Positions 51,156 through 64,000 of a DNA stretch of 64,000 nt are shown here, piece after piece (the first letter of the stretch is position 1; each line of letters begins with the position of its first letter). The notes beneath the pieces were generated by a model, which saw only the letters and a list, made by a program, of their open reading frames with translations, did not search any database and was not told where the DNA came from. The stretch comes from Paenibacillus sp. FSL R7-0345 (lineage in GTDB: Bacteria > Bacillota > Bacilli > Paenibacillales > Paenibacillaceae). The stretch spans positions 4,756,501-4,820,500 of the forward strand of contig NZ_CP152002.1 in the NCBI RefSeq assembly GCF_038595055.1, in the 5' to 3' direction. The translations under genes and the position numbers were made by a program.

Positions 51156-52364
51156 ATGACGACAGCTTCAGACAGAACGATCACGGTAACGAACCGTCCT
51201 ACCAGAGATCAGCTTGAGAAGATTTACGATATTTTGGATGAATGTTTTTCCGTAGGTCGGACTTTTTTTCAGGAAAGACTAGACCTCGACAGCGCATACG
51301 ATCCGGATACTACATGGTTTGCGACGGTCGACGGCAAGATCGCTGCCAATGTTCAAATCTTTCCGCTCTCTGTCAGAGTCGGCCAAGCGGTCTTGCAGGC
51401 GGGTGCAATGGGCAGCGTCGCTGCAGATCCGAGTTACCGCGGCATGGGACTTACTCACAAAATTCTTGCTGCACAAACGGACTATATGAGAGAAACCGGT
51501 TATGATATAAGTTTACTTTTGGCCAGTAAGCACGCATTTTATGAGAAGGTCGGCTGGAGACTTGTTCCCGAGACTGCTTACGCTGTTGAGAAGCAGCCGG
51601 GTGGTGAGCAGCCGGACGGTTACACCATTATTCCTTTTGATTCCCGCTATCTTAATGATATCCGCTGTATCTATGATCGTTTTAATCAAAACCGCACCTA
51701 CACCGTAGTGCGTAATGAAACCTACTGGGAGGATCTGATCCATTGGCCGGAATGGAAAAAGGCTGACTGTCTGCTGCTTCAGCAAAACAATAAAATTGTA
51801 GCTTACGGCATTATTGAAAAAAAGGACACCGAACAGGTATTTATCAACGAATTTATCTACTTGGATGAAGCGGCGGACGGGGTTGAATACTTGTTTCATG
51901 CATTATGCCGGCTCCGCCCGAAGGCCAGGCAAATCTTAGCAATGCTGCCGGAGGATCATAAGCTATATTCCTATTATCAGCAGCATCAGGCACAACCCGT
52001 AGAAATCCATATAGCGATGTGGAAAATGATCAACCTGCATTCTACATTCCATAAGCTTCAGCCTGAATTGGAGCGCCGCCTTAATGATAATGATCGGACG
52101 GCAAATCAAGAGCTATGCATAGCGCTGAAATGCGGAGAGGAGCGGATCTGTCTTGATTACCGTCACCAGCGGCTCTCCGTTTCAGAGGATATTCCTGCCG
52201 GTTCCTATGTATCGATAGATGTGGATGAACGGAATCTGATCACTTATATGATATTCGGCTATCCGGCGGAAGGCGCCGTCGAAGAAGCTGCTGAACATGC
52301 CGATATTTTGCGGGCCCTGTTCCCGAAACAGCAGGCTGTGTTTTATTTGACCGACAAGTTTTAA
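51156..52364 (+). CDS. Eis-like GNAT N-acetyltransferase
   Basis: A 402-residue protein with the Eis architecture: N-terminal GNAT domain with acetyl-CoA loop AADPSYRGMGLTHKIL (about 89-104) and FYEKVGWRLVPE (about 128-139), a second degenerate GNAT unit (about 160-285), and a C-terminal SCP2-like domain (about 295-402). Eis enzymes acetylate aminoglycosides or protein and small amines; the natural substrate here is unknown. AGGAGG precedes the ATG. It converges with the wall-sugar operon at a shared terminator. Confidence 0.9.
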   Translation: MTTASDRTITVTNRPTRDQLEKIYDILDECFSVGRTFFQERLDLDSAYDPDTTWFATVDGKIAANVQIFPLSVRVGQAVLQAGAMGSVAADPSYRGMGLTHKILAAQTDYMRETGYDISLLLASKHAFYEKVGWRLVPETAYAVEKQPGGEQPDGYTIIPFDSRYLNDIRCIYDRFNQNRTYTVVRNETYWEDLIHWPEWKKADCLLLQQNNKIVAYGIIEKKDTEQVFINEFIYLDEAADGVEYLFHALCRLRPKARQILAMLPEDHKLYSYYQQHQAQPVEIHIAMWKMINLHSTFHKLQPELERRLNDNDRTANQELCIALKCGEERICLDYRHQRLSVSEDIPAGSYVSIDVDERNLITYMIFGYPAEGAVEEAAEHADILRALFPKQQAVFYLTDKF

Positions 52365-52492: not shown

Positions 52493-53413
52493 TTACCCGT
52501 TGATCGCTTTTGATTTTCCGAGCAAAACAGCACCATAGGCTGCATTGTTAACAGGCATAATCAGCTTTGTCTGCGGGTAGCTTTGGGCAAGCTTCCGCTC
52601 TAATGCCTCTCTTACAAAACGGGACTTCTGCAGCACACTTCCAGCCGTTGCAATCGGGCTTTCATGTAATTCCAGCCGCTCAATAACAGGCACCACAAGC
52701 TCCAGCAGACTGGCTGCGCATTGCTCCGCAAGCTTTAGCGCCCGGGCGTCACCCAACTCGCAGGCCTTCGTCATAACCGGGGCGAGCTCTGCGATATCTT
52801 TTTTCGTTGTGTTTTTGTGATAGACAAAGCCGATAACTTCTTGTACAGTGCCAAGTCCAAGCCGCTCGTATACCAGCGCAGGGATGATCGTATCCGCTAT
52901 TCTTCCGTCCTCTGCCTGAACCAGTACGGACAGGAGGTCACGCCCAATGCTATATCCGCTTCCCTCATCATCAATCAGATGGCCAAAGCCTCCTGTGCGA
53001 TGCCGTCCTCCCTTATGATTAACCCCGAAGCAAATAGAGCCTGTTCCGGCAATAAGAATAATGCCCTGCATCGCATTTTGCGCTCCATACAATGCCGTTT
53101 CCTGATCACCGGTAATCGTTAAAGGGCCCATATAACCGTTATCTCTCACCTGCTTCTCCAAAAAACGAGCGACTACCGGATTGCTTACTCCTGCCGCTCC
53201 TATACATACATGAGTAACTTCCTCTAAATGGGTGCAGCAGAGCTTCGTCCGATTAAAAATCTCCTCAAAAGAGGCTGCAATAGCCTCGGCGTCACCGCCG
53301 TTATAATTAATAGGCCCTACAGTAAAGGTTAGTAAAACCTCTTCAGTATCGCCATGTGCAACGGTAACGGCTGTCTTGGTGCCGCCCCCGTCAATTCCAA
53401 CAATAAACGACAT
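52493..53413 (-). CDS. BadF/BadG-type N-acetylamino-sugar kinase (MurK-like)
   Basis: A 306-residue ASKHA kinase. Phosphate motif 1 GIDGGGTKTAV (about 6-16), GAAGVSNP, and adenosine/phosphate-2 motif IILIAGTGSICFGVN (about 114-128); GFGHLIDDEGSGYSIGRDLL is typical of the BadF/BadG group that includes N-acetylglucosamine kinase and Clostridium MurK (MurNAc/GlcNAc kinase). In this operon it should phosphorylate GlcNAc and MurNAc set free by NagZ and NamZ; MurNAc 6-phosphate is then the substrate of MurQ. Last gene of the operon, 12 bases after nagZ. Confidence 0.9.
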   Translation of the reverse strand: MSFIVGIDGGGTKTAVTVAHGDTEEVLLTFTVGPINYNGGDAEAIAASFEEIFNRTKLCCTHLEEVTHVCIGAAGVSNPVVARFLEKQVRDNGYMGPLTITGDQETALYGAQNAMQGIILIAGTGSICFGVNHKGGRHRTGGFGHLIDDEGSGYSIGRDLLSVLVQAEDGRIADTIIPALVYERLGLGTVQEVIGFVYHKNTTKKDIAELAPVMTKACELGDARALKLAEQCAASLLELVVPVIERLELHESPIATAGSVLQKSRFVREALERKLAQSYPQTKLIMPVNNAAYGAVLLGKSKAING

Positions 53414-53425
53414 ACTTATATCCCC

Positions 53426-54988
53426 CTAAAGCTGAATCGTAATGCTGGCAGCCGGTGTTACCTCACCATTCAGGATGGGAATAAGGGATTTGAATGCCTC
53501 CGGAGAATATTCAAATGCCGTAAGGCCGCAGAACTCACCTTCGATTAATGACAAATCATAAGGCCGACCTAACGTAATTGCCGTTACTTTACAGTCTGCT
53601 GTCAAAAGCTTCTGTACAAGCGCCAGCTGACCTTTATTTTCACGCGCATTGAACAGCCCGATTACAACATGCTTGTACCCTTCAGCCTTTTGCAGCGCAG
53701 TGTTCATTTGCTCCTCGCCCGGATCAATGCTGATCATCTCATACGCTGCATCAAAATACTCACCCATATATTGGGGAAAGCTAAGCTCTTGATTCACGCT
53801 GCTGGAGGCAAGATCGGTCCGGTAGGAATGGGAGCCCATAAATAATACCTGCTTATCACCTGTTTGAACAGGCTCGAATTCACCTTTTATACGGCAAATG
53901 GTTTCGGTCCGCATCAGCTCATTCGCCCGGCGGTGAACCCCGCAGCCCACCACCCCGTAATCCGGCTCCTCAATAACCGCATACCGGGCTTTATAGGCTA
54001 AAATTTTGGCCACAGCTGCATCAATAAAAGCTTCATCTAAATCACCGGCCGCTACAGCTTCTTCTATTAAATGAACCGCTTCTTTAACCGCTGCAGGCGT
54101 GTGACTGATGAACACCAGATCAATCCCTGCTTTAATGGCTTGCAAGGCGCCTTTTGCTGTCCCGTAGTAACGTTTAATCGCATCCATTTCCAGACAATCG
54201 GATACAATCAGTCCGTTAAATCCCAATTTCTTTTTGAGCAGCTCTGTAATAATCGTATAAGACATCGTTCCCGGCACGCCGGACTTGTCGATTTGCGGAA
54301 ACAAGATATGCGCACTCATGATGGCCTGTGCACCTTGCCCGATTGCGGCCTTAAACGGCAGCAGTTCAAGCTGCTCTAATTCCTCAGCCGTTTTATTAAT
54401 CACAGGCAAGCCAATATGCGAATCGACATGGGTATCCCCATGACCCGGAAAATGCTTCAGCGAGGACATTACACCCCCATCGAGTAAGCCTTTCATCATT
54501 TGAATCCCGTACTGCGCTACTGTCTCAGCGGAATCCCCGTAAGAGCGAACGTTGATCACCGGATTCAAAGCATTATTGTTCACGTCCATCACGGGCGCAA
54601 GATTGAAATTAATACCTAATGCTTTTAATTCCCTGGCGGTAATTCTGCCTGCTGCATAAGCATTTTCAGGGCGTCCTGAAGAAGCAATCGCCATGGCTCC
54701 GGCTACATTCGTTGCATCCTTGGGCATTCGGGTAACCCGGCCGCCCTCCTGGTCAATCGTAATAAAGCCCGGGATGCCTGTATGTGCGGTGAACCATTGC
54801 TGCAGCTCAGCTACAAGCCCGCCTAATTGATATTTATTGCTGATATTATGTGAGAATAAAATAATATTGCCGACTTTATACTGCTCAATGACTTCCTTCA
54901 GCTCGGGGGATATCTCCGTTGACGGGAAGCCTGTTACGAACATTTGCCCGATTTTCTCGCGTAAGCTCATTTGTTCTATCGTTTTCAT
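53426..54988 (-). CDS. nagZ: Beta-N-acetylglucosaminidase NagZ (GH3), cytoplasmic
   Basis: A 520-residue GH3 enzyme. The barrel starts MSLREKIGQMFVTGFP; KHFPGHGDTHVDSHIGLP (about 188-205) bears the catalytic His of NagZ, and LIVSDCLEMDAI (about 267-278) the nucleophile Asp. A second alpha/beta domain (about 345-520) follows, as in Gram-positive NagZ. It removes GlcNAc from the non-reducing end of muropeptides or GlcNAc-MurNAc. Unlike B. subtilis NagZ it has no signal peptide or lipobox, so it acts in the cytoplasm. 17-base gap after namZ. Confidence 0.95.
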   Translation of the reverse strand: MKTIEQMSLREKIGQMFVTGFPSTEISPELKEVIEQYKVGNIILFSHNISNKYQLGGLVAELQQWFTAHTGIPGFITIDQEGGRVTRMPKDATNVAGAMAIASSGRPENAYAAGRITARELKALGINFNLAPVMDVNNNALNPVINVRSYGDSAETVAQYGIQMMKGLLDGGVMSSLKHFPGHGDTHVDSHIGLPVINKTAEELEQLELLPFKAAIGQGAQAIMSAHILFPQIDKSGVPGTMSYTIITELLKKKLGFNGLIVSDCLEMDAIKRYYGTAKGALQAIKAGIDLVFISHTPAAVKEAVHLIEEAVAAGDLDEAFIDAAVAKILAYKARYAVIEEPDYGVVGCGVHRRANELMRTETICRIKGEFEPVQTGDKQVLFMGSHSYRTDLASSSVNQELSFPQYMGEYFDAAYEMISIDPGEEQMNTALQKAEGYKHVVIGLFNARENKGQLALVQKLLTADCKVTAITLGRPYDLSLIEGEFCGLTAFEYSPEAFKSLIPILNGEVTPAASITIQL

Positions 54989-55005
54989 TCATCGCTCACC
55001 ATCCG

Positions 55006-56157
55006 CTAGTGATATAAATGGTATTGCTTTTTCATTTCCGCAAATTGCCTGCTTTCCTCTGCAAACTGTTCGAGCAGCTGCTTTGCCTGAATATCTTTCG
55101 TACGATATACGCCGCTTCCGCCCAGCAAATCAATAAACGGGCGTGAGCCCTCCTTCACAGGAGGCAGAAATGCGAATTGCTCATACAAATCTCTTATCGT
55201 AAATAATAAGGTTACGCCAACTTCTAACGGCTTCATCACTTGAGGATCTGTAATATATATTTGTACTCCGCCGCATAGCTCCCCTGAATGCTTGGATGAC
55301 GTTGGCTTGAAATGAACCGGACGGAAATACACGCCTGGAATCAGGCAGGCATTCATCTCCTCTGCCAGCTGCTTTGCCTGAATGAAGGGGGCCCCGATCA
55401 TTTCAAAGGGGAACGTTGTACCCCGTCCTTCGGAGCAGTTAGTACCTTCAAATAAACATGTGCCTGTGTATAACAATGCTGTTTCATACCGCGGGATTCC
55501 AAGTGAAGGATGAACCCAAGTTAAGGCAGTATCCGGGAAAGACATGCTCCGTTCCCAGCCTTCCAGGCGCACGATATGAAGCGACGCCTTCCAGTTCATT
55601 TGATCATTTGCCATGATAGCCACTTCACCTGCGGTCAGGCCGTACCGGACAGCCAGCTCATAATTCCCGACAAAGGATTTGAAGCCTGGCTTTAAGATAT
55701 TCCCTTCCACGTTCACCCCGTTAAGCGGATTCACCCGGTCGAGAACAACAAATTCCACGCCGGCTGCAGCACAATCCTCAAGGGCATACAGCATCGTATA
55801 TATGAAGGTATAATACCGCACACCAATATCCTGGATATCATACACAAGGATATCTACCTTCTCCAGCATTTCCTTTGTTAAACGTTTGGAATCTTTCCGG
55901 TACAGGCTGTAGACCGGAACGTTGGTATAAGGGTCCGTATACGTCTCTACTAATGCTCCTGCGTCCAAATCTCCGCGAACCCCATGTTCAGGCGAGAACA
56001 TTGCAGTAAGATTACAACGTTCATGCAATATCGTAATGGTTGATCTAAAGTCTTTGGTGAGCCCTGTCGGCGCAGTAATTAACCCCACACGCTTGCCTTC
56101 AAACAAGTGAGGATACTTTGCAATAGAGTCGATCCCGTTTAACACCATGCTACGCAA
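55006..56157 (-). CDS. namZ: Exo-beta-N-acetylmuramidase NamZ (DUF1343, GH171), cytoplasmic
   Basis: A 383-residue GH171 protein. Family blocks are GKRVGLITAPTGLTKDFRSTI, FSPEHGVRGDLDAGA, YSLYRKDSKRLT, DILVYDIQDIGVRYYTFIYTM, VLDRVNPLNG and ALLYTGTCLFEGTNCSEGRGTTFPFE. It releases MurNAc from the non-reducing end of MurNAc-GlcNAc. No signal peptide, in contrast to the secreted B. subtilis enzyme. Its ATG overlaps the end of the PIG-L gene by 8 bases. Confidence 0.94.
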   Translation of the reverse strand: MRSMVLNGIDSIAKYPHLFEGKRVGLITAPTGLTKDFRSTITILHERCNLTAMFSPEHGVRGDLDAGALVETYTDPYTNVPVYSLYRKDSKRLTKEMLEKVDILVYDIQDIGVRYYTFIYTMLYALEDCAAAGVEFVVLDRVNPLNGVNVEGNILKPGFKSFVGNYELAVRYGLTAGEVAIMANDQMNWKASLHIVRLEGWERSMSFPDTALTWVHPSLGIPRYETALLYTGTCLFEGTNCSEGRGTTFPFEMIGAPFIQAKQLAEEMNACLIPGVYFRPVHFKPTSSKHSGELCGGVQIYITDPQVMKPLEVGVTLLFTIRDLYEQFAFLPPVKEGSRPFIDLLGGSGVYRTKDIQAKQLLEQFAEESRQFAEMKKQYHLYH

Positions 56158-56854
56158 GACCCGGCTGTCTGATCTTCATCGTCTCAGCAGGCACCATGAA
56201 GGCTTCGGCATACGTTTTTCTAGCTTCACAGCCCCGGACAACCGCCAATGCTTTATAGTAATCCATATATTTAAAAGATTTGCTGTTCGTCACAAACCAA
56301 TGCCGGCTTAAAGCCTCAATCCATAAGTCATAGGCCGCCTGATCAAAATCCACATATACGTAAGGGACAAAGTCCACGGCATCTTCCCAGTTTTCCGAAT
56401 AGTACAGCTTGGCTGCAAAGTGGGCGGGAAGCTCACGCTCAAAGGAGGACAGGCTTGCGAAGAATCTTGCATCGCCCACGATATGATGGGTCAGTGCATG
56501 ATCCTTATGCATGCTGTTTTTCCAATGAGTTATGATAATGTCGGGCTTCACGCGCCGGATAACATCGCAGACTTCCATACGAATCTGCTGATGGTCAGGC
56601 AGCTCTCCGTCACAATAATCAAATACAACAGCCTCACCGCCCAGCATAGCGGCAAAGCTTTCCGCCTCTTTCACTTTTTGCTTACGGTACTCATTCATCT
56701 CCTGCCCTGCCGGCACGCCTCTTTCACCTGGAGTTAACGCCAGTGTTACTATACGGTCTCCCTTCAAGCTATGGCTGGCCAGCACACCGCCGGATGCCAA
56801 TTCCACATCGCCGACATGTGCTCCAATCGCTAATACTGTTAACTTTCCGCCCAT
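56150..56854 (-). CDS. PIG-L/LmbE-family deacetylase-like protein
   Basis: A 234-residue PIG-L protein, a family of zinc de-N-acetylases of GlcNAc-type sugars. The N-terminal metal motif reads GAHVGDVELASGG where active members have AHPDD-x-E: the zinc His and Asp are kept, but the Asp that acts as general base is Gly. The second zinc site SMHKDHALTHHI is intact. It may be an altered or non-hydrolytic member. Starts 2 bases after the acetyltransferase gene, so it is strictly co-translated with it. Confidence 0.88.
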   Translation of the reverse strand: MGGKLTVLAIGAHVGDVELASGGVLASHSLKGDRIVTLALTPGERGVPAGQEMNEYRKQKVKEAESFAAMLGGEAVVFDYCDGELPDHQQIRMEVCDVIRRVKPDIIITHWKNSMHKDHALTHHIVGDARFFASLSSFERELPAHFAAKLYYSENWEDAVDFVPYVYVDFDQAAYDLWIEALSRHWFVTNSKSFKYMDYYKALAVVRGCEARKTYAEAFMVPAETMKIRQPGLA

Positions 56855-56856
56855 CC

Positions 56857-57825
56857 TTATAGCTCCCTCCGCAATATGGAAAATTGTTTTTCAACATGAA
56901 ATCCTGCTTTTTGATAGATTCGAAGAGCCGGGTTATTACTGCCAGTAAATAAAGAGATATATTGACAGCCCGCATTTTGAAAAGCTTCGACCATCCGGAA
57001 AAACAATACACTGCCGAGACCATGACCCTCATGCTCCGGGTGCACCCCGATTCCGCAAAAAAAGCCCCGGCCATCCGGCTCTACAATAATGGGACCTGCA
57101 AAACCAACAACCTCATCGCCATACACAGCCGCCACAAGAGGTTCGCCATCCCTCACATAAGCCGCTACATCCTGTTCCCACTGCGGATTCTGCAGGGCAG
57201 CAAGCATGGATTCAAGCCCTTTATGAACGGCAGGGACATAAGGAGTAACCCGATAGCCTTCTCGGTTTGCTTTTCTTTCTTTGCCTGCAATATCTTCAGG
57301 AATACTGAAATTCCCCAGCTTCAGGTACATACCGCATTGTGTCGCCCGGTCTATATACCCTCTGGCGATTAAAGCAGCATATAATGGCTGGTCCTTACTA
57401 ATGCCCGGGGCATTATTGTGTTCATGCTGCGGCGCACTTGGAATATTCCATTTCAGCTTCACAGGGTTAAAGAACAGTACTTCCGCCTGTCCTTTCCCAA
57501 GCTGGCGGAATCTTGCTTCCAAACGCCGCACAAAGGCGTCGTACAGTTCCATAGAAGCGGCCTCGGAATCTATAATAACGCACGTAATATAACCGGCCAC
57601 ATCGCCAAGCGGGAGATTCTCCCCGCTGCAGCCGGCTGCAAAACCAGCTACGCCTTTTTCATTGCAGCCTACCCATATACACTCCGCATCGAAATAAGGA
57701 TGATTAATGAATGTGTCCTGAAATTCCCGTTCGGTAAACGGCTTGTAATCATATTGGGTAGCCTGCCGGTTCCAGAGCGCCACAACTGCAGAAAGATCTT
57801 CCATGGAGAAAAGCCTGATTTGCAT
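56857..57825 (-). CDS. Two-domain GNAT acetyltransferase
   Basis: A 322-residue protein with two GNAT modules. The second is canonical (IGVHPEHEGHGLGSVLFFRMV near 255-275 and IYQKAGFHVEKQF at the end); the first (about 1-140) is degenerate. The ATG at 57825 shares one base with the anmK stop (TAATG) and has GGGAGG 8 bases upstream. In an amino-sugar operon beside a deacetylase-like protein it may re-acetylate glucosamine or muramic residues; this is inference. Confidence 0.85.
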   Translation of the reverse strand: MQIRLFSMEDLSAVVALWNRQATQYDYKPFTEREFQDTFINHPYFDAECIWVGCNEKGVAGFAAGCSGENLPLGDVAGYITCVIIDSEAASMELYDAFVRRLEARFRQLGKGQAEVLFFNPVKLKWNIPSAPQHEHNNAPGISKDQPLYAALIARGYIDRATQCGMYLKLGNFSIPEDIAGKERKANREGYRVTPYVPAVHKGLESMLAALQNPQWEQDVAAYVRDGEPLVAAVYGDEVVGFAGPIIVEPDGRGFFCGIGVHPEHEGHGLGSVLFFRMVEAFQNAGCQYISLFTGSNNPALRIYQKAGFHVEKQFSILRREL

Positions 57826-59045
57826 TATTCGAACCTCCCAGGCTGCGGATAGGGCCAAGCAATTTTGCCCATGACTACCGGCCGGGAAGCCCCGGTTACT
57901 TGTGTAACATTGTTCGGCAGCTGCTTCATCGTATGATAAGCCAGCACCGCAAAAGCAACGGCTTCTTTGGCATCACTGTTACTGCCAATATCCTCCTGTG
58001 TCAGCACCTGTACTCCATAGGGTGCAAATAATTGCCGCAAATCCCGCAATAAAGTTTGGTTATAACTCCCGCCGCCGCCAATCAACAATTGCTGAGCCTG
58101 ATGCTTCGGTGCAATATACCGTTCATAGCTGTCGGCAATGCTCCAGGCCGTTAAGCGTGTAGCCGTAGCAATAACATCCTCGGCTTTCCAGTTATTCGCC
58201 TCCATTAACTGAATCATCTGTGCAGCATATTGCTCTCCAAACCGTTCTCTCCCCGTCGATTTTGGTAGAGGCATCGTATAATATTCATCCTGCTGCATCC
58301 ATTTCAAAAGCTCATCAATGACCTGGCCGCCCGCAGCAATTTCACCGCCGGTATCCATTGTCATTGGCGCAAATAATCGGGATACAAGGCCATCGATAAT
58401 CATATTTCCCGGCCCTGTATCGTAAGCATATACCTCTTCCGGAGAAGCATTTGCAGGAAGAACAGTCACATTTCCTATTCCTCCAATATTCTGCAGAAGC
58501 GATGTTTTCTCCGGATGGTTAAACAATAAATATTCAGTAAAAGGCACCAAAGGCGCTCCTTGTCCACCCACTGCCATATCAGCGACTCTAAAGTCTGATA
58601 TGCACGGAATGCCTGTACGATTCGCTATAACTGCACTTTCGCCAATTTGAACTGTACAATGCAGGTTATAGCCGTCCATAATCTTCTCTTCCGGAGCATG
58701 GTAGATCGTTTGGCCATGTGATCCTATCGCAAATATTTGTGATGGCGTAAGTCCGCACTTTCCGATTACAGACATTGCAGCCTGGGCGTACAATTCGCCC
58801 AGCCACATGTTCATTGCGCCTACCTTATCAACCGTTGCGTTGGATGGATCAAACAGCTCAAATATCTTACTCCTGACATGCGCCGGAAACGGAGTGTTCT
58901 CAAAAGCCAATACTTCCGCCTCGATCCCAAACTCTTTTTCCGGCGAAGGTGACAGTTTAATTGCCGCCGCATCAATACCGTCTACCGATGTGCCGGACAT
59001 CAGGCCGACCAGGTAAGTTACATCGACTTTCGACGTGCTGCCCAT
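57825..59045 (-). CDS. anmK: Anhydro-N-acetylmuramic acid kinase
   Basis: A 406-residue AnmK: N-terminal YLVGLMSGTSVDGIDAAAI, SHGQTIYH, QNIGGIGNVTVLP, AYDTGPGNMIIDGLV and LIGGGGSYN are all diagnostic. It opens the 1,6-anhydro ring of anhydroMurNAc and phosphorylates it to MurNAc 6-phosphate, MurQ's substrate. Its start shares one base with the stop of the permease gene. AnmK implies that anhydro sugars made by lytic transglycosylases reach the cytoplasm. Confidence 0.96.
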   Translation of the reverse strand: MGSTSKVDVTYLVGLMSGTSVDGIDAAAIKLSPSPEKEFGIEAEVLAFENTPFPAHVRSKIFELFDPSNATVDKVGAMNMWLGELYAQAAMSVIGKCGLTPSQIFAIGSHGQTIYHAPEEKIMDGYNLHCTVQIGESAVIANRTGIPCISDFRVADMAVGGQGAPLVPFTEYLLFNHPEKTSLLQNIGGIGNVTVLPANASPEEVYAYDTGPGNMIIDGLVSRLFAPMTMDTGGEIAAGGQVIDELLKWMQQDEYYTMPLPKSTGRERFGEQYAAQMIQLMEANNWKAEDVIATATRLTAWSIADSYERYIAPKHQAQQLLIGGGGSYNQTLLRDLRQLFAPYGVQVLTQEDIGSNSDAKEAVAFAVLAYHTMKQLPNNVTQVTGASRPVVMGKIAWPYPQPGRFE

Positions 59046-59905
59046 TACCCTTTCACCGCTCCGACAGCCACCCCTTCAAGGAAATACTTTTGCAGGCTGA
59101 AGAACAAAATAAACATCGGAACAGCAGAAATGGTTGCACCGGCCATCATAGGCGCAAAGTAAGTGGTATTGGCAAAGCGGAAGTTTTTGAGGCCCACCTG
59201 AATCGTCTGCATGTCCATCGTATTGGTGACCAGAAACGGCCAGAAGAAGTCATTCCATGCTGCCATAAACGTCAGAATCGCCAATACTGCCATAACGGTT
59301 TTGGATAAAGGCATAATGATATGCCAAAAGATTTTGGGTTGAGAGCAACCCTCGATTTTCGCAGCCTCAATAATTTCAACCGGAATGGAAGACATGAACT
59401 GCTTAACCAGGAATATGTTATACACGGTCACTAAGCTTGGCATAATTAATGCTGTATACGTATTTTGCAATTCAAAAACATTTACGATCAATATATACAG
59501 CGGAACCTGTGTTACCTGTGTTGGGATCATCATAGACCCCAGCAGGATAGCAAACAAAATCCCTTTTCCTTTAAATCTCATTTTGGCAAAAGCATAGCCT
59601 GCCAGCGTAGCGAAAAATACATTAGACACCGTAATACAGGCTGCTACGATAAAGGAATTGATTAACCAGTCCCAGGAATGGGAGCTGAAGTTAAAAAAGA
59701 ATTTATAGGACTCAAAAGAAATTTTCGACGGGAGGATCGAATAGCTCATTGCACCGGCTTCCACCGGATCGCCGAACGAGGAAATAATCATAAAGTATAT
59801 CGGGAAAATGGTCGCTGCGGCAAACAGGAGAAGGCACGTAATGATCAGACCATTACGGGCGAACAGAGACCCATTGCTTTTTATGTTATTGTTATACAAA
59901 CCCAT
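59045..59905 (-). CDS. Carbohydrate ABC transporter permease (MalG type)
   Basis: A 286-residue CUT1-family inner-membrane permease with six helices. The ATPase-contact EAA loop reads EIIEAAKIEGCSQPKIFWHIIMPL. Pairs with the MalF-type gene 17 bases upstream. No ATPase gene is in the cluster, so a shared MsmX-type ATPase is probably used, as commonly for CUT1 importers of Firmicutes. Confidence 0.95.
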   Translation of the reverse strand: MGLYNNNIKSNGSLFARNGLIITCLLLFAAATIFPIYFMIISSFGDPVEAGAMSYSILPSKISFESYKFFFNFSSHSWDWLINSFIVAACITVSNVFFATLAGYAFAKMRFKGKGILFAILLGSMMIPTQVTQVPLYILIVNVFELQNTYTALIMPSLVTVYNIFLVKQFMSSIPVEIIEAAKIEGCSQPKIFWHIIMPLSKTVMAVLAILTFMAAWNDFFWPFLVTNTMDMQTIQVGLKNFRFANTTYFAPMMAGATISAVPMFILFFSLQKYFLEGVAVGAVKG

Positions 59906-59922
59906 AGGTTTCTGCCCCTTTC

Positions 59923-60825
59923 CTAGTATTCTATGTCTTTACCTAAAAACTTAAATTGAAGGAATGAGATCAAAGCAATAACCGCTGCCAGAAGTAAGGA
60001 CTGGGCCGCCGCCTCACCAAATTCGAAATATGTGAACGCATTGTTAAAAATCAACAATCCCACCATGGTTGTTGCATGGTCTGGTCCGCCGCCGGTCATC
60101 AGATAAGCATTCTGGAACACCTGGAAGGAACCGATGACCCCTGTAACCAGCAGGAATAGCGTTGTTGGCTTAAGGAAAGGGATGACGATAAACCACAGCT
60201 TTTGCAAAAAAGTTGCGCCGTCAATGTCTGCCGCTTCATAATAGCTGTTATCAATACCGAGCAAGGCCGCAAGGTAGATAATAATGGCTGTACCATGACT
60301 CGATAACCAGGACATTAACACCAGTGAAAACATGGAAGTTGCGCTGGAACCAAGCCAGTTTTGATTATCGATACCAAAAAGGCCCACCAGCTGATTGGCA
60401 ATACCCGATTTTAACGGATCGAAGATCCACAGCCATACAACAGCAAGAGATACACCTGATGCTACAGCAGGCAAATAATATACCGCTTTAAAGATCGACT
60501 GTGTCTTTTTCTTGAAAGGCATAATTAAAATGGCAATCAGGAAGGACAGAAAAATATTAAACGGAACAGTTAACAGCGTATAGACTAATGTATTTTTCAG
60601 CGCTTTCCAGAACAGTTCATCTGCAAAGGAATTAACAAAGTTCTCCAGACCTACGTAAGTGGACCCCAATGGACCGTATTCCTGCAGGCTGATTATAAAT
60701 GCATTGATTACCGGATAGGCGGTAAATAAAGAAAACGCAATAAGTGCTACTGCGATAAACGCGTATCCCCAACCAGAGTCACTTTCAAGCTTCAACTTTT
60801 TTCTTTTGGTCAACATTTGATTCAT
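59923..60825 (-). CDS. Carbohydrate ABC transporter permease (MalF type)
   Basis: A 300-residue CUT1 permease with six helices; EAA loop YYEAADIDGATFLQKLWFIVIPFL. I begin at MNQMLTKRKK (60825, GAGAGGTG upstream); 30 more codons are open upstream but encode no membrane or family sequence and cross the intergenic hairpin. Confidence 0.94.
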   Translation of the reverse strand: MNQMLTKRKKLKLESDSGWGYAFIAVALIAFSLFTAYPVINAFIISLQEYGPLGSTYVGLENFVNSFADELFWKALKNTLVYTLLTVPFNIFLSFLIAILIMPFKKKTQSIFKAVYYLPAVASGVSLAVVWLWIFDPLKSGIANQLVGLFGIDNQNWLGSSATSMFSLVLMSWLSSHGTAIIIYLAALLGIDNSYYEAADIDGATFLQKLWFIVIPFLKPTTLFLLVTGVIGSFQVFQNAYLMTGGGPDHATTMVGLLIFNNAFTYFEFGEAAAQSLLLAAVIALISFLQFKFLGKDIEY

Positions 60826-60879
60826 TGGGCCGCACCTCTCTTCTTCAAAAAATACCAGCTGCTGACTAGATCCAGAAGG

Positions 60880-60910
60880 AAAGCTGTACGTTCCAGTTAC
60901 GTACAGCTTT
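60880..60910 (-). other. Intergenic hairpin after the binding-protein gene
   Basis: A perfect 11-bp stem AAAGCTGTACG/CGTACAGCTTT with a 9-base loop, followed by CTTTCCTTC on the minus strand. Such a hairpin would stabilise the upstream mRNA and let only part of transcription pass to the permeases. Confidence 0.7.
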
Positions 60911-60931
60911 CGCATGCCTTTCTAAGACAAT

Positions 60932-62368
60932 CTAGTCAACTACTACACCGTCTTCACCGAAGGATTTGACGGCAGCTGCTTTAACTGCCTCGTACATCTC
61001 CTGCGGGGTAATTTCATCGGCAAGCAGGGCTTGCAGTTTGGGAATAATCACTTCTGTTTCAATTTTAATGGCTTCTGCAGCCAGATCTGTAGGAATATCT
61101 GTACGGGCCGGGAGCGCTTTGGCCATCATAGCTTGACCTGCCGCAACGTTATCTTCGTTCCGAGGAAATTGTTCCAGCACTTCTGCCTTACGACCGGACT
61201 CTGTAATAGGTGTCAGGAAGAGCTCGTTACTATAGTTAGCAGCAATGGAACCGGAGGACAGGAAGTTCATCGCCAAGGCGATATTTTTGATATGTTCTTC
61301 AGAAGGCTCCTTTTTACCACGCAGTGCGATGTAACCATCTACTATGGAAGTAGGAATATAATCGGCACCGTTGAAGGTTGGGACCGGAAGCGAAATGTAG
61401 TCCACTTCAATTGAATCTGCAACAGCCGAACCATCGTTCGCTTTAATCTTCTCATTGTTCAGACGGGCGGAGTTTTCAAATGCAGATAAACCTTTACCCG
61501 TGATCATCGTCTGGCCGGTCAGGAACATATTCCAGCGTTTGCCGGCATCGATGGAGCTCAACTCTTTAGGCATAGAACCATCGTCGACCATTTCACGGAT
61601 AGCTGTCAGCAGACCCAGGAATTTTTTGCTTGTATATGTGTATTTCAGGTCATTATCGAAGTAATCCGGCAGACCTGCCGTTTTGGCAAGGATAGCCAGA
61701 TAATCTTTAGAGGCCACACCGGATGTGGCGAACACGAAACCGTAACGGGTAGTTTCACCGCTATCATTTTTCACTACGCCTTTTGAGATGGCATCCCGGA
61801 ACTCTTCATAGGTCCAGCCGTTTTGCTGAATACTTTTCCAATCAATCCCGGCTTCTTCAAGGAATTGTTTGTTCCCGCCGATTGTGTGGATTTCCATATA
61901 TGCCGGCAGGCCGTATTGAGCGTCACCTAACTGGAAATATTTCATTGGAACTTCATCATAATCCGCCTTTATTTCATCAGATAGTACGGTGTTCAGGTCG
62001 ATCAGTACATTCAGCGCTGCATATTTTGAAAGTCCGGAGGCACCGATCCAGGCAATGTCGGGAGGGGAGCCCGCATTTACTTGAGTATCAAGCTTTTGCG
62101 TCATATCTTCCCAGCTCGCCGGTTCGATTTTCAGAGTCAAATTAGGATGCAGTGTATTAAATTCTTGTTCCATATCTGCAAAACGCGCCTGGTAATTAGC
62201 CGATACCGGTGGCAATAATGCAGTTATCGTATCTTTCTTCACACCGCCGCCGCTGTTGCCTGCACTTCCGGAATCAGCAGTGTTATTTGCGTTTCCTCCA
62301 CAAGCGGATAACAACGATACCATCATGATTGCTGACAAAAGCAGAGTTGATACACTTCTTTTTTTCAT
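60932..62368 (-). CDS. Carbohydrate ABC transporter substrate-binding lipoprotein
   Basis: A 478-residue CUT1 extracellular binding protein. Signal MKKRSVSTLLLSAIMMVSLLS, lipobox LSAC (Cys 23), Gly/Asn/Ser linker, then the two-lobe SBP_bac_1 fold (DTITALLPPVSANYQARFADME, SWEDMTQKLDTQVNAGSPPDIAWIG, GWTYEEFRDAI). Start at 62368 with AAGGAGG upstream. Given the operon it probably binds muropeptide sugars such as GlcNAc-MurNAc. Confidence 0.93.
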   Translation of the reverse strand: MKKRSVSTLLLSAIMMVSLLSACGGNANNTADSGSAGNSGGGVKKDTITALLPPVSANYQARFADMEQEFNTLHPNLTLKIEPASWEDMTQKLDTQVNAGSPPDIAWIGASGLSKYAALNVLIDLNTVLSDEIKADYDEVPMKYFQLGDAQYGLPAYMEIHTIGGNKQFLEEAGIDWKSIQQNGWTYEEFRDAISKGVVKNDSGETTRYGFVFATSGVASKDYLAILAKTAGLPDYFDNDLKYTYTSKKFLGLLTAIREMVDDGSMPKELSSIDAGKRWNMFLTGQTMITGKGLSAFENSARLNNEKIKANDGSAVADSIEVDYISLPVPTFNGADYIPTSIVDGYIALRGKKEPSEEHIKNIALAMNFLSSGSIAANYSNELFLTPITESGRKAEVLEQFPRNEDNVAAGQAMMAKALPARTDIPTDLAAEAIKIETEVIIPKLQALLADEITPQEMYEAVKAAAVKSFGEDGVVVD

Positions 62369-62425
62369 TGAGGCAGCCTCCTTAATTTTCAAAAGCATCC
62401 ATCGTCTCATTTCACTTCTTGGCCA

Positions 62426-63331
62426 TTAATTAAATGATAAGATTGCCTGTTTCAGTTGTCCGCCATTCGCATCAAGCGCCTCTCCTGCCGCCTTAGCATC
62501 TAACCCCGTTTTAATCATCATGATCGCCAGCTTACAATTCAATCCTGCCTTTTCAAGTGTATCTGCGGCGGTTGAAGCATCTACATCCGTAGTACTCATG
62601 ATAATACGGATTGAACGATCCACCAGCTTAACGTTGCTCGCCTTTAAATCCACCATTAAGTTGTTATACGTTTTCCCTAACTTGACCATGGTGCATGTGG
62701 TCAGCATGTTAAGCACCAGCTTTTGTGCGGTTCCTGCCTTTAACCGGGTCGAGCCGCTAATGACCTCCGGCCCCACAACAGGTGAAATACAAATATCTAC
62801 AATAGGTTCAAACATCGAGCCTTTGTTATTGCACACACCGATCGTTGCTGCTCCCAGCTCCTTTGCCTTCGTTAAAGCTGCAATAACAAACTTTGCACTG
62901 CCGCTTGCCGAAATGCCAATCAGGACATCCTTGTCTGTGACACCTATGCTTTCAATTAATGCGATCCCTTCATCAGCATCGTCTTCACAGCCTTCAACCG
63001 CAGTTCGTAAAGCGATATCACCCCCAGCAATATAACCCTGTACCAGGGAGGGATCGGTACCAAAGGTAGGAGGACATTCGGAAGCATCCAAAACACCCAA
63101 TCTTCCTGATGTGCCGGCTCCTATATACAACATTCTTCCACCAGCAGACAGTCTGTGGTGCAGAACATCTACCGCCCTTGCAATCTGCGGAATTTCCTTA
63201 GCGATAGCCCCGGAGACCAGAGCATCTTGTTGATTCATTAACTGGACCATTTGTTCTGTGGTACATTCATCAATCAACAGGGTGTCTGGATTTACAGCCT
63301 CAGTTGTTAATCCCGCAAGGTAGTCGTTCAT
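62426..63331 (-). CDS. murQ: MurNAc 6-phosphate etherase
   Basis: A 301-residue SIS-fold etherase that splits MurNAc 6-phosphate into GlcNAc 6-phosphate and D-lactate. GAGTSGRLGVLDASECPPTFG, AVEGCEDDADEG, GISASGSAKFV and SGSTRLKAGTAQKLVLNML are diagnostic. The ATG at 63331 has AAGGAGG 6 bases upstream. First gene of the operon. Confidence 0.96.
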   Translation of the reverse strand: MNDYLAGLTTEAVNPDTLLIDECTTEQMVQLMNQQDALVSGAIAKEIPQIARAVDVLHHRLSAGGRMLYIGAGTSGRLGVLDASECPPTFGTDPSLVQGYIAGGDIALRTAVEGCEDDADEGIALIESIGVTDKDVLIGISASGSAKFVIAALTKAKELGAATIGVCNNKGSMFEPIVDICISPVVGPEVISGSTRLKAGTAQKLVLNMLTTCTMVKLGKTYNNLMVDLKASNVKLVDRSIRIIMSTTDVDASTAADTLEKAGLNCKLAIMMIKTGLDAKAAGEALDANGGQLKQAILSFN

Positions 63332-63370
63332 AGTCATCCTCCTTCTTGTCAGTGTAACCTCACAATTAAT

Positions 63371-63439
63371 TAACAATGCATGTTAGAATACCATACATTT
63401 ATTAATTTTTATACTAATATATATCCTGTAACCCGTCAA
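63371..63439 (-). promoter_or_regulatory. murQ promoter with operator-like palindrome
   Basis: On the minus strand TTGACG (63434-63439) and TAGTAT (63411-63416) are 17 bases apart. TAACAATGCATGTTA (63371-63385) has 5-base inverted arms and lies just downstream of the predicted start near 63404, a repressor position for MurR. Confidence 0.55.
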
Positions 63440-63520
63440 TAGATTTTGAAATAAATTTTTATAAGTAAATTTTATTGCGGTTTTTTATTTCATAACCTTA
63501 TACAATCTGTTATATCATAT

Positions 63521-63537
63521 TTGTAAAGCGCTTACAA
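63521..63537. promoter_or_regulatory. cre-like CcpA site upstream of murQ
   Basis: TTGTAAAGCGCTTACAA is a cre-like palindrome with one extra base in one arm. It lies about 85 bases upstream of the murQ -35. The rest of the 356-base gap between murQ and murR is AT-rich without a gene. Confidence 0.5.
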
Positions 63538-63630
63538 TAAGAGGGTTTCAAGTAAACCTTTGACTGGTTAAACCCACATGGTTTTATTATGTAGATAATC
63601 TGACATAGCCGAAGAAAGCCGGGCATACTA

Positions 63631-63663
63631 AAAAAAGCATTGACCGATGATCGATCAATGCTT
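63631..63663 (-). terminator. Terminator of the murR-type gene
   Basis: A 9-bp stem AAGCATTGA/TCAATGCTT (63635-63643 with 63655-63663) with inner CGAT/ATCG; the minus strand then has six T. Confidence 0.85.
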
Positions 63664-63687
63664 CACTAAAATCCATTCTATGAGAGA

Positions 63688-64000
63688 CTAATATCTGAGC
63701 TTTTTCTTCAATATGTTATGGGTTTTGGTTAATGAGGATTTCACCTGTTCATATTCTGCACTTGCGACACCGGCAAATAAAATGTCGACAATCGTCAGCA
63801 TAGCAATACGCGAGCCCATAGCACCGCTGCGGATGGTTATTTCAGGTGTAGATATACTAAGAACAATATCCGCCCGAACTGCAAGCTCACTTTTATTGTA
63901 TCTCGTAATCGCAATACAAGTCGCTTTATTCTTTTGGGCAATGATCAGGGCATCAATAATATCACTGGTTGCCCCGGAGTTAGAAATGAAAATGGCAACA
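63688..64000 (-). CDS. murR: RpiR-family regulator, MurR type (partial, 5' end outside)
   Basis: The last 103 codons of an RpiR/MurR regulator that runs off the window. They encode the second half of the SIS domain: VAIFISNSGATSDIIDALII, then KATCIAITRYNKSELAVRAD and a C-terminal helical tail SSLTKTHNILKKKLRY. MurR senses MurNAc 6-phosphate in known systems. Located directly upstream of murQ on the same strand with a terminator between, so it is a separate unit. Confidence 0.85.
   Translation of the reverse strand, partial: VAIFISNSGATSDIIDALIIAQKNKATCIAITRYNKSELAVRADIVLSISTPEITIRSGAMGSRIAMLTIVDILFAGVASAEYEQVKSSLTKTHNILKKKLRY

Follow-up and report, generated by a model that had tools for sequence, protein, structure and literature searches.

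Organisation of the locus

A window of 64,000 nucleotides from the complete 6.98 Mb genome of Paenibacillus sp. FSL R7-0345 (contig NZ_CP152002.1, positions 4,756,501 to 4,820,500) was analysed by means of open reading frame (ORF) calls and Pfam and NCBIfam profile scans. It contains a run of ten genes on the minus strand, which from 5' to 3' are murQ, the gene of a binding lipoprotein, two permease genes, anmK, a GNAT acetyltransferase gene, the gene of a PIG-L-fold protein, namZ, nagZ and a kinase gene (Table 1). This operon probably encodes a catabolic salvage route for cell-wall sugars containing N-acetylmuramic acid (MurNAc) that is independent of the phosphotransferase system (PTS). The gaps between its genes, in the order of transcription, are 15, 16, 17, -1, -1, 2, -8, 17 and 12 bp, confirming the tight minus-strand operon that an earlier note on this DNA had described; the GNAT start was set at 57825, which gives a 1-base overlap with anmK, and not at the longer-ORF start at 57858. 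The arrangement is not due to chance, because dozens of Paenibacillaceae genomes have this gene set in the same order.

The same note had placed a murR gene at the head of the operon. A MurR/RpiR-type gene is indeed present, but it appears to form a unit of its own, being followed by a strong terminator-like hairpin and then by a promoter-like sequence before murQ, both recognised by consensus matching only, in a scan whose promoter count was not above that of shuffled sequence. In the genome analysed TGAAATAAA and TTTATTTCA arms are present at this promoter-like site and are a plausible candidate for the MurR operator. The site is nevertheless conserved, since in 109 regions upstream of murQ, TATTGACG was present in 61 and ATTTCAAAA in 85.

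Table 1. Features of the operon and its upstream region (positions in the window)
Feature	Position	Strand	Basis or remark
MurR/RpiR-type regulator, C-terminal part	63688..64000	-	full gene 287 aa, start beyond the window
Intrinsic-terminator-like hairpin 3' of murR	63634..63664	-	14-pair stem and T-run
Promoter-like TTGACG-17-TAGTAT 5' of murQ	63411..63439	-	consensus match
murQ, N-acetylmuramic acid 6-phosphate etherase	62426..63376	-	TIGR00274 above cut-off
ABC solute-binding lipoprotein, SBP_bac_1	60932..62410	-	LLSAC lipobox
ABC permease 1, UgpA/MalF-like	59923..60915	-	profile scan
ABC permease 2, UgpE/MalG-like	59045..59905	-	profile scan
anmK, anhydro-N-acetylmuramic acid kinase	57825..59045	-	PF03702
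Tandem-GNAT acetyltransferase	56857..57825	-	closest structure C. acetobutylicum glucosamine N-acetyltransferase
PIG-L-fold protein, HVGD replacing HPDD	56150..56854	-	PF02585
namZ, exo-beta-N-acetylmuramidase, without signal peptide	55006..56157	-	both NamZ domains
nagZ, GH3 beta-N-acetylglucosaminidase, without signal peptide	53426..54988	-	GH3 profile
BadF-family kinase, MurK-type (MurNAc/N-acetylglucosamine kinase)	52493..53413	-	PF01869 and 8zo3

Hydrolases, etherase and kinases

MurQ, AnmK, NamZ, the GH3 protein, the permeases and the binding protein scored above or near the curated cut-offs of their families. For MurQ the score was 367 bits with TIGR00274 (cut-off 302), and for AnmK, the sole PF03702 copy in the genome, 356 bits with that profile and 466 with NF007148 (cut-off 387). 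NamZ contains both domains of its family (NamZ_N, PF07075, 257 bits; NamZ_C, PF20732, 165 bits) and matches 4k05 over 366 residues (E 5.7e-81); a second NamZ was not found in the genome, so that the operon holds the only copy. NagZ gave 293 bits with PF00933 and 205.4 with NF003740, just under the cut-off of 207. It carries the dyad KHFPGHGDT..DSH (motif KHFPGHGDTHVDSH in the ORF), and its matches in the PDB are GH3 N-acetylglucosaminidases, the nearest being 6k5j, with 4zm6 (E 4.4e-88) also among them. The BadF-type kinase matches 8zo3, a characterised kinase of MurNAc and N-acetylglucosamine (GlcNAc), across residues 1-302 (E 6.9e-53), and by this full-length similarity it would be of the MurK type. 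In Clostridium acetobutylicum, MurK uses both MurNAc and GlcNAc as substrates (PMC5790795, PMC10465942). These family assignments fit the earlier suggestion that the kinase and AnmK feed MurQ with MurNAc 6-phosphate.

The stop-to-stop frames of namZ and nagZ (389 and 520 codons, respectively) leave no space for a signal peptide and no hydrophobic segment was seen at either N-terminus, in agreement with the claim that both enzymes lack one. The export known for the B. subtilis enzyme is thus not a feature of the operon NamZ, nor does export define the NamZ family.

Uptake

The binding protein and the two permeases are the parts of a CUT1-type ATP-binding cassette (ABC) importer, as had been proposed. 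There is no ABC ATPase gene within the operon; a single MalK/MsmX-type ATPase with an OB domain is encoded in the 7 Mb genome, at 145 kb, and as the only such protein of this genome it is presumably shared by many CUT1 importers.

A search of the genome for a MurP-type PTS, which the earlier note had called for, returned eight genes that encode PTS EIIB domains, one of which belongs to a GlcNAc PTS. None was MurP-like, the best of the eight proteins reaching 199 bits against the NF007152 cut-off of 516; five of them were clipped at the edge of the retrieved locus, with the EIIBC region covered. The independence from a PTS that had been claimed is therefore supported.

Conservation of the operon

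In a survey of 120 Paenibacillaceae genomes, 56 had NamZ, and all 56 NamZ loci were fetched. They had murQ or ABC genes nearby and usually a kinase gene, with anmK in 44 and nagZ in 26. The GNAT and PIG-L genes occurred together in 28 loci, PIG-L alone in one and GNAT alone in none (Fisher p 4e-15, a descriptive value only, as the loci share ancestry). A further 80 loci from named genomes, all of Paenibacillaceae, were picked with the PIG-L profile, so that the counts of GNAT and NamZ are informative and that of PIG-L is not; the scan used Paenibacillaceae-like peptide patterns and is silent on other phyla. GNAT directly preceded PIG-L in all 80 loci and NamZ followed in 79, anmK was present in 67 and nagZ in 28, and murQ and the ABC genes stayed with the operon in most. 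NagZ is thus optional and NamZ nearly constant in the related operons.

A second type of NamZ locus was also seen in Paenibacillaceae (L036-L042, L051, L057 and L060), in which murQ and the kinase gene lie opposite the genes of the binding protein, permeases, NamZ and NagZ, and which has neither GNAT nor PIG-L.

Among other Bacillota, strong relatives of the PIG-L protein adjoined a GNAT gene in 14 of 18 loci. The GNAT gene could precede or follow, and these pairs mostly lay amid murQ, namZ, nagZ, anmK and kinase genes in shuffled order. The GNAT/PIG-L combination therefore seems to be a conserved, uncharacterised enzyme pair tied to cell-wall sugar use in several families of Bacillota. AnmK and a NagZ without leader are common in such neighbourhoods across the phylum, and the closest solved structures of the kinase and the GNAT are the MurNAc/GlcNAc kinase and the C. 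acetobutylicum glucosamine N-acetyltransferase, findings which speak against the Gram-negative traits that the earlier note had seen in this operon.

The GNAT and PIG-L-fold proteins

Both genes had been listed in the earlier note, but their role was left unexplained there although they are the unusual part of the operon. The AlphaFold2 model of the GNAT (pLDDT 92) matched the C. acetobutylicum glucosamine N-acetyltransferase best (5kf2, 5kga and 5kf1; Z 23.5-23.6, 290 residues aligned, 19% identity; with 5kf1, Z 23.6 and rmsd 4.1). The GH3 fusion 4zm6 came next with its GNAT region (Z 23.2), other tandem GNATs being at about 20 or less. The likeness came from the fold search alone, since a GNAT profile search at E 0.01 did not find GlmA (5kf1). 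The predicted structure is accordingly a GlmA-type tandem fold, a shared fold being no proof of the substrate.

The PIG-L protein, which has named relatives in Paenibacillus sp. PastM-3 (98%) and P. typhae (96%), belongs to PF02585, and its predicted model (pLDDT 86) confirmed the fold, with Z of 26-28 to BshB, BC1534 and Dac. The best matches were the hydratase GalB (Z 28.7), BC1534 (28.1) and BshB (27.8), tied within 1 Z. In characterised PIG-L deacetylases the first Asp of the HPDD motif is the general base. The operon protein reads HVGD at this site, and H-[VA]-G-D was found in 29/29 of the Paenibacillaceae copies that have residues at these positions. In other Bacillota, the copies located at MurNAc or GNAT loci had H-x-[GA]-D, except for HALD and HSLD in two weaker relatives, whereas five weak relatives at unrelated loci retain HPDD. 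The His, Asp and HKDH positions that remain are invariant or almost so, and by homology the protein would bind a metal, its likely ligands being kept. Since the general-base Asp is missing, ordinary deacetylation is unlikely and the protein is probably not a deacetylase; GalB, which is a hydratase, likewise lacks this Asp (HSAD in the alignment). Identity with the bacillithiol deacetylase BshB1 was rejected on the motif and on the TIGR04001 score (83 bits, relatives 82-112, against 182.5). Annotation pipelines would probably mislabel the protein as a deacetylase on account of its fold.

Further PIG-L proteins without the Asp were noted at L177, L183, L165 and L185 (HAMD, HAFD, HALD and HSLD); those at L165 and L185 adjoin a GNAT, and the one at L185 is also near murQ.

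Proposed route and comparison with known systems

According to the route that we propose, autolysins and amidases would free short peptide-free glycans outside the cell, and these, most likely as disaccharides, would be taken up by the binding protein and the two permeases, powered by the shared MsmX-type ATPase. In the cytoplasm NamZ would take off non-reducing MurNAc and NagZ non-reducing GlcNAc, the MurK-type kinase would phosphorylate free MurNAc and perhaps GlcNAc, and AnmK would open and phosphorylate 1,6-anhydroMurNAc. MurQ would then convert MurNAc 6-phosphate into GlcNAc 6-phosphate, with release of D-lactate. Sugars that arrive without their acetyl group would be re-N-acetylated by the GNAT and so become usable by the other enzymes, and the PIG-L partner of the GNAT most likely performs the step that produces the GNAT substrate and not the removal of an acetyl group.

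The genes give good support to a salvage of MurNAc sugars in the cytoplasm without a PTS, although several points weigh against it. The NCBIfam scan placed the operon kinase far under the NagK cut-off and matched no MurK model. By sequence, the nearest PDB relative of AnmK is levoglucosan kinase, marginally above AnmK itself, so that 1,6-anhydro-sugar kinase is the safe description. No amidase gene is present within the operon, and the imported material must therefore be peptide-free or trimmed by an unlinked enzyme. A second GH3 protein is encoded at 3.23 Mb of the genome (L006:1399-2808, minus strand; 469 aa in the longest reading), with the lipoprotein signal FVLISGC, the NagZ dyad KHFPGHGDTSVDSH and a score of 232 against the NCBIfam beta-N-acetylhexosaminidase cut-off of 207; it would be an exported lipoprotein paralogue beside the cytoplasmic NagZ. 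The internal NagZ of the earlier note thus holds for the operon enzyme, but not for all NagZ activity of the cell. Finally, the PDB relatives of the binding protein are weak and bind varied sugars, and its substrate is not readable from the sequence, which leaves the earlier claim of imported GlcNAc-MurNAc oligomers as an inference. MurNAc-GlcNAc seems at least as likely an import substrate, because NamZ is nearly constant and NagZ was found in only 28 of the 80 sister operons. The sequence establishes which genes are present, their order and conservation, the lack of signal peptides, the families and folds of the proteins and the altered PIG-L motif, whereas all substrates and the flux through the operon are predictions.

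In B. subtilis, muropeptide rescue consists of exported NagZ-AmiE and NamZ, the MurP PTS and MurQ. The Paenibacillus operon shares with it the hydrolase families, MurQ and the MurR-type regulator. In contrast, its hydrolases are leaderless, it has no amidase gene, and ABC import and kinases stand in place of MurP, so that neither the exported hydrolases nor the MurP of B. subtilis-type rescue were found in the operon. The S. aureus route combines PTS uptake, with phosphorylation, and a 6-phospho-muramidase, whereas the Paenibacillus operon has an ABC importer and NamZ. MurNAc-GlcNAc enters S. aureus intact and is cleaved in the cytoplasm by the MurP/MupG pathway (PMC6262408), and intact uptake in Gram-positives was thus already known. 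Cytoplasmic NagZ, AnmK and MurQ are common to the operon and to anhydromuropeptide recycling in E. coli (AmpG, NagZ, AnmK, MurQ), but the ABC importer replaces AmpG, NamZ, the kinase and the GNAT/PIG-L pair are added, and AmpD and LdcA are absent from the operon. The fungal GH3-GNAT fusion 4zm6, a relative of both the operon NagZ and the GNAT, is a single protein, while these are separate genes in Paenibacillus.

The MurK/GlmA salvage of C. acetobutylicum is alike in its cytoplasmic kinase-based route, in the MurK-type kinase and in the GNAT structure, while NamZ, AnmK and the PIG-L protein lacking the Asp belong to the Paenibacillus unit. The murK and glmA genes of C. acetobutylicum are reportedly clustered with an ABC transporter. 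Most of the chemistry of the operon is of known kinds; what is new is how the enzymes are combined, how widely this set is conserved, and the GNAT/PIG-L pair, and no prior description for Paenibacillus was found in our literature search. Kinase-based MurNAc salvage without a PTS would thereby be extended to the Paenibacillaceae, with a wider enzyme set that includes a cytoplasmic NamZ and AnmK.

Alternative explanations

The role of the GNAT/PIG-L pair admits two readings. The better one, itself tentative and somewhat short of an even chance, is that the GNAT restores the N-acetyl group on de-N-acetylated glucosamine or muramic acid of vegetative peptidoglycan, the role attributed to GlmA in C. 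acetobutylicum. The PIG-L protein would then be a metal-dependent deacylase or amidase, acting on another N-acyl or a peptide amide, or a GalB-like hydratase. The fold matches of the GNAT to the C. acetobutylicum enzyme and to the GNAT region of 4zm6 are consistent with this, as is the best match of the PIG-L model to GalB, tied with BshB and BC1534, but re-N-acetylation alone does not explain why the two genes are inherited as a pair. Non-acetyl N-acyl groups, a MurNAc amidase and a hydratase are all alternatives for the PIG-L activity.

The second reading concerns muramic delta-lactam, a sugar unique to the bacterial spore cortex, and is rather unlikely. The PIG-L protein would open the amide of the lactam ring to give muramic acid, and the GNAT would acetylate the resulting amine to MurNAc, which the kinase and MurQ would then consume. 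As doubtful is its extension, in which AnmK would take the anhydroMurNAc that the germination enzyme SleB generates and the operon would, at least in part, reclaim cortex glycans. This reading does account for a pair that acts as a unit, in 28 of the 29 PIG-L loci among the NamZ loci and in the adjacency seen in the named genomes and, in both orders, in other families. With a GNAT nearest to a glucosamine N-acetyltransferase, a partner that frees an amine is logical; removal of an acetyl group beside an acetyltransferase would be futile, which hydrolysis of another amide would not be, and the PIG-L protein has an amide-hydrolase fold whose deacetylase Asp is always missing at the pair loci. 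SpoIVA was found in 21/21 tested carriers of the pair, the analysed genome also having spoIVA, but the background of 209/300 and 333/398 (70-84%) makes this not decisive, and the association is weak (combined p ~0.03, uncorrected for shared ancestry). Moreover, many spore formers, congeners among them, lack the pair, four genomes of one family (f58; L169, L172, L173 and L176) hold it away from MurNAc genes, and no recycling route for muramic delta-lactam was found in the literature searched. If the pair does act on the delta-lactam, the fate of cortex sugars after germination becomes directly testable; even if it does not, the PIG-L protein would represent a new activity of its fold.

PdaA (TIGR02884) was unusable as a marker of delta-lactam synthesis, as the profile overlaps other deacetylases. 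It had no match at 1e-40 in the analysed genome, and the delta-lactam deacetylase of this spore former thus appears to be divergent or of another kind. In two of the f58 loci the pair lies near trmFO- and tsaD-like genes.

For the operon as a whole, it is improbable that NagZ and the ABC genes serve uptake of chitin oligosaccharides, with MurNAc secondary: the nearest solved relative of NagZ, 6k5j, is a general GH3 beta-N-acetylglucosaminidase, but it is the MurNAc-linked NamZ and MurQ, and mostly AnmK and the kinase, that remain associated with the transporter genes, NagZ being frequently missing. Equally improbable is a MurNAc flux through another route, PTS or extracellular hydrolysis, with the operon minor or stress-specific, for although the genome encodes the exported NagZ lipoprotein and the GlcNAc PTS (L022), it has no MurP-like PTS, second NamZ or second AnmK.

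Neighbouring genes

Upstream of murR (L003:629-9092) lies an apparent pectin/uronate region, judged by eye from its ORFs, with a pectinesterase-like gene, a LacI regulator and altronate/tagaturonate-type enzymes. Just downstream of the operon and outside it, a convergent GNAT-like gene, Eis-like by eye, occupies positions 51156-52364 of the plus strand. The ATPase gene mentioned above lies in locus L186.

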